Part shown: positions 10,208-22,218 of the stretch, piece after piece
How the letters are laid out: every line of letters starts with the position of its first letter
Numbering within the stretch: the first letter of the stretch is position 1
Assembly (NCBI GenBank): GCA_947572725.1
Contig: CANPDB010000013.1
Coordinates: forward strand, 1-39,152
Source: an uncultured Clostridium sp.
Lineage (GTDB): Bacteria > Bacillota > Clostridia > TANB77 > CAG-508
Direction: 5' to 3'
DNA: 39,152 nucleotides
Program-made: the position numbers and the translations under genes
The notes under the pieces: model-generated
Seen by the model: the letters and a program-made list of their open reading frames with translations, nothing else
The model's database searches: none
What the model was told of the DNA's origin: nothing

Positions 10208-10224
10208 ATTTGCTGGTGTTTTTT
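10196..10224 (+). terminator. intrinsic terminator after the VanW gene
   Basis: ACACCAGCA at 10196-10204 pairs with TGCTGGTGT at 10211-10219, followed by a run of T to 10224. The VanW stop codon is in the loop. Confidence 0.9.
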
Positions 10225-20656: not shown

Positions 20657-21208
20657 TTACAAATCAATTTTATTATAAATACTAGCAATATTTCCTGTTT
20701 GTTCACCAGTAGCAATTGTAAAAGGATAAAAATTATTTTTTGCTAACCACTGATAAACATCATACGAATGATTACAACTCATAGTATAAGCATCTTTTAA
20801 AAATTGTCTTAATTTAGGATTTGTTGCTTCCATAGAAGCAATTGCATACTCTTTACCAGCACGTTTTAAAGTTAAAAAATAAGACAAAGCAATTTCTCTA
20901 TCATTAAAAGTTTGTACATTAGTATTAACTGTTACAGGAGTAGCAGATTTAGATTCGTTTACATCTTCTGTAAAAATTGAAGTATTTAATTGAGGGACAT
21001 TTAATTTTCCATCAGCAGTGTCAACATTTTTTACAAATTCTACTTTTTTGTTGTAGTCTTCAACATGAATAGGAAAATGAGTATTTAATAAATTTTTTAG
21101 TTCTTCGTCTTGAACTTGATTTTTAAATAGTGACATACAAGTAATTGTATTTACACAGCTTAATATTAGTTCATTTAAATAACTTAATTCACAGATTGTT
21201 AATTTCAT
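20657..21208 (-). CDS. CotF-like spore coat protein
   Basis: A 183-residue helical protein of the CotF/ferritin-like coat family. The N-terminal helix LTICELSYLNELILSCVNTI and the paired helix with HFPIHVEDYNKKVEF are family hallmarks, and the C-terminal helices include ALSYFLTLKRAGKEYAIA and CNHSYDVYQWLAKNNFYP. CotF proteins are found in the coat of Bacillus endospores; small paralogues are frequent in Clostridia and support a spore-forming host. Two ATGs are possible: 21220 abuts AAAGGA with no spacing, and 21208 lies 12 bases from it. I take 21208. No terminator was found. Confidence 0.82.
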   Translation of the reverse strand: MKLTICELSYLNELILSCVNTITCMSLFKNQVQDEELKNLLNTHFPIHVEDYNKKVEFVKNVDTADGKLNVPQLNTSIFTEDVNESKSATPVTVNTNVQTFNDREIALSYFLTLKRAGKEYAIASMEATNPKLRQFLKDAYTMSCNHSYDVYQWLAKNNFYPFTIATGEQTGNIASIYNKIDL

Positions 21209-21281
21209 ATTTAATTTCATTCCTTTCTAAGGCATAAATCTGGTTGAAAAAGAATTAACCTATTATAGTATGTCCAATTAT

Positions 21282-21761
21282 TTAAATAGTATCCAATAAT
21301 TCTTTTCTAAAATTTATTAAATCAGAAAAGGCAATATGAATATTTTTTGCTTCAAGTCTTAAAAGACTTTCGGCCTTTTCTATTATTTCTTTCTGCAAAG
21401 GCATTGAAATAGTTACATCATTATTTTTAACTTGATATTTTTCTTCAATATATTGGGGAGTGGTTGGAAACATATTTTGTATTAAAAATACAGCATTTTC
21501 ATCTTTAACAATACCAAATACAAAATTTAAAGGTTCACGATTTATCTTTTCTTTCTTTTTTTCATAAATAGTTTTATATTTTTTGTACTGCTTGGAAATT
21601 GGAACAAACCATATTATATTTTCGTTTGTTTTATCCTTGAAACAAAAATAACAAGGTCTTTTATTTCCAGTCTCTTTATTTTCCATTAAATTATATTTAG
21701 CACCATATTCTTTAATAAATTCATTACTTATAAAGTAAAATTTTCCATTTTCTATTTGCAT
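21282..21761 (-). CDS. cptN: type III toxin-antitoxin endoribonuclease, CptIN family toxin
   Basis: A 159-residue toxin of the ToxN/CptN/TenpN group, small barrel endoribonucleases held inactive by an RNA. CptN-like features are GKFYFISNEFI at the start, KRPCYFCF, IIWFVPIS followed by KYKTIYEKK, FVFGIVKDENAVFLIQNMFP and PQYIEEKY. Length fits the family. AGGAGG lies 7 bases before the ATG. The upstream region has the diagnostic type III layout on the same strand: promoter, two tandem RNA repeats, a hairpin terminator, then the toxin. Free toxin would cut mRNA and stop growth; type III systems act in phage defence and plasmid maintenance, and this one is probably chromosomal. A PemK/MazF-like fold is shared by these toxins, but the RNA repeats argue for type III. 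Confidence 0.88.
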   Translation of the reverse strand: MQIENGKFYFISNEFIKEYGAKYNLMENKETGNKRPCYFCFKDKTNENIIWFVPISKQYKKYKTIYEKKKEKINREPLNFVFGIVKDENAVFLIQNMFPTTPQYIEEKYQVKNNDVTISMPLQKEIIEKAESLLRLEAKNIHIAFSDLINFRKELLDTI

Positions 21762-21782
21762 GTAGTTTCCTCCTAATTATTA

Positions 21783-21817
21783 CAAAATGGGAGTTATCTT
21801 TAAAAGAAAACCCCCAT
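21783..21817 (-). terminator. terminator between antitoxin repeats and toxin gene
   Basis: On the minus strand ATGGGGGTT (21817-21809) pairs with AACTCCCAT (21795-21787), 9 bp with one G-U, extended by TCTT/AAGA inside, then TTTTGT. In type III loci this leaky terminator sets a high ratio of antitoxin RNA to toxin mRNA. Confidence 0.8.
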
Positions 21818-21923
21818 ATACATTTTTTAGCTTGCCCTATTTATTGGACACTGCAAGCCGTGTCCTCCATTTGTTAAACCTATCCTATTTACCGACACTA
21901 TAGGTCGTGTCCTCCATTTTTGT
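21787..21923 (-). ncRNA. cptI: CptI antitoxin RNA, two tandem pseudoknot repeats
   Basis: Minus-strand RNA from about 21923 to the terminator. Two repeats with a 47-48 base period share ATGGAGGACACG and AGTGTC and TAAATAGG. Unit 1: stem GACAC (21911-21907) with GTGTC (21898-21894); loop ACCTAT (21905-21900) pairs with ATAGGT (21883-21878). Unit 2: stem GGACAC (21865-21860) with GTGTCC (21851-21846); loop GCTTGC (21858-21853) pairs with GCAAGC (21835-21830). The loop pairing gives an H-type pseudoknot in both units. Of its six base pairs, two are identical and four differ by compensating changes, and the 10-base linker is the same length in both. A third, partial unit follows (CTAAAAAATG). The toxin is expected to cut the precursor into single repeats that bind and inhibit it. 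Confidence 0.85.
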
Positions 21924-21929
21924 AATATT

Positions 21930-21958
21930 AGTATAACACAAAAATATAATGTTTGCAA
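21930..21958 (-). promoter_or_regulatory. promoter of the cptI-cptN transcript
   Basis: On the minus strand, TTGCAA (21958-21953), exactly 17 bases, then TATACT (21935-21930). It is placed so that the RNA would start about 11 bases before the first repeat. Confidence 0.8.
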
Positions 21959-21974
21959 TAATTTTCGTGTTATT

Positions 21975-21993
21975 TACTAATATAGTATTAGTA
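21975..21993. promoter_or_regulatory. palindrome upstream of the toxin-antitoxin promoter
   Basis: TACTAATA (21975-21982) and TATTAGTA (21986-21993) form a perfect 8-base inverted repeat around TAG. One arm (TATTAGTA, 21926-21933) recurs over the -10 box of the cptI promoter. A regulator site shared with the toxin-antitoxin promoter is possible; being AT-only apart from one base pair per arm, it could be chance. Confidence 0.35.
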
Positions 21994-22064
21994 TTGTTAG
22001 ATAAAAGTGATATTATACAATTTTAATAAATATAAACAAATATAACATAATATGACTTTTTTAG

Positions 22065-22093: not shown

Positions 22094-22117
22094 AGCAAAG
22101 AGGTGATTACACAAAAA

Positions 22118-22204
22118 ATGGTACGAATAGGAAAAAAAGTAGAAGGCAAAAAATACACAAAAAGAGTAGCAGCATATATGAAGTTTGAACAGATATATTA
22201 TTAA
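22118..22204 (+). CDS. possible 28-residue leader peptide or gene remnant
   Basis: A short frame, MVRIGKKVEGKKYTKRVAA and so on, ends 14 bases before the ABC ATPase ATG, inside the leader of its mRNA. GAGGTG lies 12 bases upstream, rather far. The frame could start earlier at GTG 22103. It is basic (nine Lys or Arg of 28 residues) and has no membrane segment. It may be a translated leader, a tiny protein or the front of a lost gene. Confidence 0.3.
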   Translation: MVRIGKKVEGKKYTKRVAAYMKFEQIYY

Positions 22205-22218
22205 GGAGGAATTATAAG

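Follow-up and report, generated by a model that had tools for sequence, protein, structure and literature searches.

A CptIN-type toxin–antitoxin locus of an uncultured Clostridium sp. with two unlike predicted antitoxin pseudoknots

Introduction

CptI antitoxins have been described as repeats (PMC4627078), and a locus in which the two antitoxin units preceding a single toxin differ in a helix raises the question of what the toxin reads in its RNA. Here, we describe such a CptIN-type locus on the minus strand of a 39,152-nt stretch of DNA (hereafter the window; contig CANPDB010000013.1 of assembly GCA_947572725.1) from an uncultured Clostridium sp. One toxin served by two unlike pseudoknots, a difference kept across species of related gut bacteria, amounts to a natural experiment on recognition by CptN: either any sequence will do in the pseudoknot helix S2 or the two RNAs differ in function. 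Judging from the sequence, the interest of this locus would lie in the persistent difference between its units and in a lysine (Lys57) at a conserved position of its toxin.

Layout of the locus

Read on the minus strand from 22150 to 21100, the sequence contains, in order, a conserved promoter, two 47-nt units, a hairpin and an open reading frame (ORF) of 159 aa (Table 1), that is, every part of the layout that an earlier note on this DNA had described. The unit length of 47 nt depends on our choice to cut at the AUGGAG boundary. In CptIN_Er of Eubacterium rectale (PDB 4RMO), two units likewise precede the toxin, with a terminator in between (PMC4627078). CptIN systems tabulated in PMC6315513 have units of 40–47 nt in 2–3.1 copies, and the two 47-nt units of the window lie within this CptIN range of two to three tandem units of ∼40–47 nt. 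In type III systems of the ToxIN group, too, a nuclease toxin is preceded by RNA pseudoknot repeats, but the three described ToxI/antiQ RNAs consist of 34–36-nt units in 2.8–5.5 copies and ToxIN forms heterohexamers (PMC5086642).

Table 1. Features of the CptIN-type locus in the window
Feature	Position	Strand	Evidence
Promoter, TTGCAA-17-TATACT, TG before −10	21930..21958	−	Sequence, promoter scan, conservation
Antitoxin unit 1, 47 nt	21871..21917	−	Sequence, descriptor, covariation
Unit 1 helices	S1 21911-21907 with 21898-21894; S2 21905-21900 with 21883-21878	−	Sequence
Unit 1 loops	L1 G21906; L2 21893-21884	−	Sequence
Antitoxin unit 2, 47 nt	21824..21870	−	Sequence, descriptor, covariation
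Unit 2 helices	S1 21864-21860 with 21851-21847; S2 21858-21853 with 21835-21830	−	Sequence
Unit 2 loops	L1 G21859; L2 21846-21836	−	Sequence
Hairpin between antitoxin and toxin, probably leaky terminator	21787..21817	−	Predicted fold
Ribosome binding site AGGAGG	21769..21774	−	Sequence
cptN toxin gene, 159 aa	21282..21761	−	NF047359, 4RMO, dN/dS
DNA homology with close copies (cassette)	21282..22052	−	Comparison of relatives' stretches

The −35 box (TTGCAA, 21958-21953) and the −10 box (TATACT, 21935-21930) of the promoter are 17 nt apart on the minus strand. A promoter scan lists this site (21930..21958); since the same scan yields 14 promoter-like sites in ∼900 bases versus 7.5 expected, conservation is the better evidence. 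The −10 box and the 17-nt spacer are kept in all seven loci of the close clade defined below (window included), and the −35 box is TTGCAA in six of them and TTGAAA in one.

The hairpin between the antitoxin and the toxin gene (21817-21787) is predicted to be strong (−14.5 kcal mol−1, z −3.3). The earlier note had called it a terminator, and this part of the description fared less well: the T tail is weak and a terminator scan of the region does not include the hairpin among its sites, and we therefore regard it as probably a leaky terminator.

Identity and constraint of the toxin

The 159-aa ORF matches the NCBIfam equivalog CptIN (NF047359) with 143.3 bits, at a curated cut-off of 90, over the entire profile (positions 1–150 of 150), and CptN of PDB 4RMO with E = 4e-18; in sequence, the window toxin resembles the latter only remotely. 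The comparison with CptN/ToxN profiles that had been proposed as a check thus bears out the earlier reading of the ORF as CptN-like and, together with the conservation of the repeats in relatives, the assignment of the locus to the CptIN type. By these matches, the ORF is a CptN toxin. Its best match in PHROGs (1.5e-16) is a family of unknown function. No family of Pfam or PADLOC matched the ORF at E up to 1, which further sets it apart from ToxIN toxins, as both libraries presumably contain ToxN/AbiQ models.

The toxin gene is under purifying selection: dN/dS is 0.09–0.13 between the window and its four close relatives with an intact toxin, and 0.09–0.16 in all 10 pairs of these five sequences. 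This constraint argues for a working toxin. The active-site triad of CptN has been given, with its residues unnumbered, as Ser, Ser/Thr and Arg (PMC4627078). In our alignment to the numbering of 4RMO, which is our own count and is consistent with the residues named in that paper, Ser51 corresponds to Ser56 of the window toxin, Ser52 to Lys57 and Arg53 to Gln58, so that Lys57 would occupy the second Ser place of the published triad. Among the 178 toxins compared, the Ser52 place is taken by S in 99, by T in 68 (S or T in 167 of 178) and by K in eight, and the place of Gln58 by K in 150, R in 13 and Q in 10. Both Lys57 and Gln58 are present in each of the five intact toxins of the window's clade. 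With these residues in these places, the activity of the toxin is not to be taken for granted, and one could imagine that its nuclease activity has been lost or changed and that the leader is now only regulatory. We consider this highly improbable, given the purifying selection, the retention of the equivalents of Ser51, Arg30, Pro31, Lys56, Tyr57 and Tyr104 of 4RMO, and the antitoxin units, which stay paired. Arg35 is invariant in all 178 toxins.

Structure of the antitoxin units

The fold of CptI_Er, an H-type pseudoknot with a one-base L1 and a long A-rich L2 (PMC4627078), fits each of the two units of the window, which consist of helix S1, a one-base L1 (G), helix S2 and an A-rich L2. In both units, S1 is GACAC/GTGTC; S2 comprises six pairs in each and is ACCTAT/ATAGGT in unit 1 and GCTTGC/GCAAGC in unit 2. 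Four of the six S2 pairs differ between the units, every time by a double change, and all remain Watson–Crick pairs; this is a difference from CptIN_Er, as is the unit length (45 nt there, 47 nt here). The pairing and the four compensated pairs had been pointed out in the earlier note; the sequence confirms them, and covariation with shuffle and slide controls (see below) backs them. The 5′ single-stranded flank AUGGAG is identical in units 1 and 2, and the L2 core UAAAUAGG is common to both. The 3′ tails are unlike (UUAACAA in unit 1, UAAAAA in unit 2).

An exact descriptor of this structure (5 bp, 1 nt, 6 bp, 1 nt, 5 bp, loop of 8–12, 6 bp) matched the minus strand of the window at 21911 and 21864 and, in isolation, at 10216; there was no match on the plus strand. 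Chance expectation is 0.265 matches per window strand (200 first-order Markov simulations). Two matches 47 nt apart upstream of a CptN gene are not due to chance; the lone match at 10216 is within the chance expectation. A pattern search of the same genome for orphan antitoxins retrieved only the two units of the window. On the plus strand, the S1 hairpins (21846-21865 and 21894-21911) are the only terminator-like sites of the region (two found, 0.2 expected) and, when read in that direction, might also halt RNA arriving from the opposite side.

The other check that had been proposed, a search of Rfam for type III antitoxin models, lent no support: there was no match at gathering score in the window, and the leader gave seven sub-threshold matches, none of them to a family named as a type III antitoxin. 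One of these, to the Staphylococcus aureus sRNA tsr31 (E 0.2; 22.3 bits at a cut-off of 50), spans 21783-21848 on the minus strand, that is, the 3′ side of unit 2 and the terminator hairpin, and was treated as a chance match. As Rfam, Pfam and PADLOC yielded no match, the support for CptIN comes from NCBIfam, PDB and the comparison of related loci.

Comparison set and close relatives

For this comparison, we assembled 237 loci (L001–L237; 41 of them from one scan of genome contigs), using searches of the window's own genome and of the class, genus and family, and 120 fetched stretches. The set was reduced by toxin and leader to 210 loci and then to 197 unique leaders. An adjacent pair of units was obtained in 141 of the 210 loci, with a descriptor that permits at most one S2 mismatch, so that the counts lean to pairing. 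The S2 sequences of the paired units were identical in 32 of these loci and different in 109; the second reduction left 131 leaders, 31 with like and 100 with unlike S2. Compared between the two units, 517 S2 pairs of the 141 loci were the same, 203 differed by double and 18 by single changes, and 28 were broken. The family is known and abundant, and the locus is one of its ordinary members: 72 of the 210 genomes of the genus have a CptN match, which is over the cut-off in 61. Three genomes (G510, G515 and G580) have five matches each, fragments and double-counted pieces included.

The closest relatives form, with the window, a clade of seven loci (L020–L024, L026 and the window). The S2 of unit 1 is ACCTAT/ATAGGT in all seven, and that of unit 2 is GCTTGC/GCAAGC in six; in the seventh, L020, it is ACTTGC/GCAAGT, a compensated change. 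The five loci with an intact toxin share 81–94% amino acid identity, with dS of 0.66–0.77 between the window and the other four. The two remaining loci have a damaged toxin, with a frame that ends after 50 codons in L022 and a truncation in L026, but intact copies of both units. What may be new here, although an earlier description is possible, is that the two units of the window are old and have been kept distinct across the close loci despite this dS. There is also a decayed copy (G408, contig C125, L245 1441-1558), in which unit 1 stands alone, the promoter is missing, one S2 pair is broken (ACCCAT with ATAGGT) and no CptN match was found among those listed.

Covariation was assessed in alignments in which identical rows were entered once. 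In the window clade (11 distinct units of seven loci), all 121 cells were paired, and four S2 pairs had double changes, in 17 cells. None of 500 shuffled alignments reached the percentage paired, the number of double-change cells or the covariation score; two further measures, the number of pairs with double changes (reached in 284 of 500 shuffles) and of further pair types (500 of 500), were not above the shuffles. When the structure was slid by 1–3 columns, only 16–46% of cells were paired. S1 is invariant within this clade, which thus provides no covariation support for S1. Such support comes from the sister clusters 26 and 27, where 449 of 450 cells in 45 distinct units were paired and double changes occurred in six pairs (three in S1, three in S2) and 49 cells, with none of 500 shuffles reaching the pairs, cells, percentage or score and 233 of 500 reaching the further pair types. 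A GTCAC subgroup of eight cluster 26 loci, the register of which is unclear, was left out.

A fairer test of pairing is to find the units independently of S2, which covered 86 of the 197 leaders. Unlike loops were present in 67 of these; of their 134 loops, 117 found their partner within the same unit and four in the sibling, compared with an average of 29.2 and a maximum of 42 after random reassignment of loops. For the window clade, the own unit provided the partner of all 14 loops and the sibling that of one; random reassignment gave 7.5 of 14 on average (maximum 14), a high value because about half of the loops of this clade are alike. The strict rule of five Watson–Crick pairs used here does not fit every group, as only 23 of the 38 loops of the 19 like-loop leaders and six of 30 loops in cluster 28 (CCCTTT/CTCTTT, a poor fit to the descriptor) pair under it. 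Overall, these data support the view that each unit is an H-type pseudoknot with a short L1 and an A-rich L2.

Proposed mode of action

The family, layout, pairing and conservation of the distinct units make it very likely that the locus is a working type III toxin–antitoxin module of the CptIN family, in which two pseudoknots neutralise the CptN endoribonuclease. A single promoter would give rise to an RNA with two pseudoknots; the position of the hairpin suggests that it ends most transcripts and that few read through into cptN. By analogy with CptIN_Er, the endoribonuclease CptN would cut this RNA, at A-rich AA/AUG boundaries predicted near 21917, 21870 and 21823 if the layout is a guide, and the two 47-nt products would then hold CptN, most simply in a 2:2 ring. 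From the same layout, one transcript could supply both RNAs of a ring. The S2 helices of the two units would be old paralogous versions, kept paired by compensating changes.

The shared 5′ single-stranded flank and loop core make it probable that units 1 and 2 neutralise one and the same toxin. In CptI_Er, the RNA chains end at A45 with a cyclic phosphate; the contacts made by the toxin lie mainly at the two termini of the RNA, 5′ and 3′, S2 is touched at one of its ends by Ile106, and a single repeat suffices for full antitoxicity (PMC4627078). These end contacts, taken with the shared flank and loop core, favour the view that the two units are two working antitoxins. The simplest account would then be slow compensatory change in two old units without homogenisation, with a toxin that recognises not S2 but the loop and the unpaired ends. 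Of three CptN toxins (35–44% identical), each was rescued by its cognate antitoxin, and neither of the other two antitoxins had this effect (PMC4627078).

Unlike units across the family

Slow compensatory change does not obviously explain how steady S2 is within each unit position, and the different helices may, as the earlier note suggested, tune recognition and render the units unequal. To compare the units beyond the close clade, we used toxin clusters built by identity and not by S2 (178 of the 197 toxins were usable); they replace a first comparison by 4-fold distance that was circular, three of its four groups having been chosen by S2. Cluster 26 comprises 52 loci, whose toxins are on average 53% identical to that of the window; the 5′ strands of S2 differ between the units in 51 of them, and L033 differs on one side only. 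In the E. rectale-like cluster 9, one S2 pair is G-C in unit 1 and A-U in unit 2 in all eight leaders in which the pattern found both units. Parsimony requires 10 changes of the unit 1 S2 and five of the unit 2 S2 across the 60 loci of clusters 25–27. These figures, along with the constancy of both helices in the window clade, are what would be expected of an ordered, non-equivalent pair, in which each S2 is read or needed in its own place, be it for fixed positions in a 2:2 ring, for affinities or for the order of cutting. Several observations make such non-equivalence unlikely. Like units are common (31 of 131 leaders), and include L010, the repeat of which we read as identical to the CptI_Er repeat in the primers of PMC4627078; a single CptI_Er repeat, moreover, gave full antitoxicity in that study. 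The order of the innermost S2 pair is not universal, with U-A in unit 1 and C-G in unit 2 in 51 of 123 loci but the reverse in 14, and slow compensatory change could also produce the conservation of S2. We give the same low credence to the broader proposition that the CptI antitoxins of many Clostridia are ordered pairs of non-interchangeable pseudoknots, with S2 unlike since before the split of the window clade from cluster 26 (now ∼53% identical), one transcript per 2:2 ring contributing one RNA of each kind, each ring place or cut demanding its own helix, and searches by repeat finder overlooking over half of such loci.

The unlikeness of S2 could instead have been selected because it avoids mispairing of neighbouring units during folding, an explanation that we hold to be somewhat less improbable, if still doubtful. 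At unlike loci, pairing across units is mostly weaker than pairing within them (in the window, −4.9 and −7.8 kcal mol−1 for the own helices of units 1 and 2 versus −1.7 and +0.8 for the cross pairs), in keeping with the rarity of loops that could pair with their sibling by five Watson–Crick pairs (the 4 of 134 above). However, weaker cross-pairing is expected even without selection, because any compensated difference weakens the cross pairs; like units are common; and in the CCTAT/CCTAC loci a cross pair (−3.5) is as stable as the unit 1 helix itself (−3.2). The double changes in S2, 180 of which are transitions and 23 transversions (counts that repeat shared ancestry), also follow the route that drift through G-U pairs would take.

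Two other generalizations were rejected. The first, by which the unlikeness of the units would prevent slippage and so fix their number at two, fails since like units also come in twos: two units are the rule in 29 of 31 like-S2 and 96 of 100 unlike-S2 leaders, so unlikeness is not needed to hold their number. The exceptions are, among the former, L069 with three full units and L045, the third unit of which is a weak match (score 15 of 46), and, among the latter, L223 with three units and L164, L166 and L050, which were counted as having one (L164 and L166 because their S1 had changed). The second, that the S2 of unit 2 is the stabler one everywhere, holds in the window and in the CCTAT/CCTGC and ATCAAC/ACTGGT groups but is false for CCTGT/CCTAC (−5.1, −4.8) and the E. 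rectale-like pair (−6.5, −4.7). In a clade of six loci (L061–L065 and L091), the units differ at five of the six S2 pairs (ATCAAC/GTTGAT and ACTGGT/ACCAGT), in all six by transitions only.

In a FastTree tree of 123 toxins (45 of 115 inner branches open), the like or unlike state requires 15 changes, and the window toxin falls into starred sets of 5, 7 and 59 rows with support values of 98, 95 and 99, respectively. Only a single pseudoknot unit was found in each of the leaders of L037, L040, L051, L052, L055 and L057, of which 263 nt or more were read; two of these loci (L055 and L057) belong to the archaeon Methanimicrococcus blatticola, and the record of L052 is a Methanosarcinales one. Such leaders are perhaps type III antitoxins without repeats.

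The unlikeness of the units also affects their detection. Tandem Repeats Finder (settings 2 7 7 80 10 50, applied to the last 260 nt of each leader) found the repeats in all 31 like-S2 leaders but in only 45 of the 100 unlike-S2 leaders, missing the other 55, including the units of the window. Searches for type III systems that start from repeats would therefore undercount them.

Genomic setting

The genome that contains the window carries a second CptIN locus with an intact frame (L001, contig C53), a member of cluster 26 whose toxin is 56% identical to that of the window. It has the same layout and also has unlike units (CCTAT/ATAGG in unit 1, CCTGC/GCAGG in unit 2), and, unit by unit, its two innermost S2 pairs are the same as in the window. 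In contrast, its S1 is CGCAA/TTGCG, its S2 was called as five pairs, and the place of Lys57 is taken in cluster 26 by Thr (29 of 52 toxins) or Ser (23). A broken CptN fragment on contig C28 (L003/L004) reaches 84% identity with the toxin of the window in its best stretch, and no antitoxin units were seen upstream of it. By eye, the DNA downstream of this fragment is shared with L020, L021 and L022, and the window copy therefore lies at a different place from these three loci.

The left edge of the DNA shared with the close copies falls between 22018 and 22052 in those stretches of the relatives that were compared; the right edge is at the stop codon (21282) in L020, L021, L022 and L024, at 21291 in L023 and at 21514 in the truncated L026/L241. 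Among 19 coat-gene loci from other genomes, only one (L270 in G513) also has the adjoining ABC gene; this syntenic site is without CptIN and carries a NUDIX gene (PF00293, L270 2186-2635). A stub of the NUDIX gene that is whole in G513 is seen at ∼22110-22205 of the window. The sequence data fit, but do not prove, a mobile cassette with turnover. Among viral contigs, four stretches matched the pattern and none was confirmed, phages gave no match, and three of 72,556 plasmid records matched, each at under 60% identity.

Just before the coat-protein gene, at 21203-21258 of the window, there is a ∼56-nt stretch that recurs in genomes of the genus. It is absent from the syntenic site of G513 and has one copy in the window's own genome with at most three mismatches in a 26-nt core. 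With a 625-base query, 127 of the 210 genomes gave a match, and many of the matches listed cover only this part.
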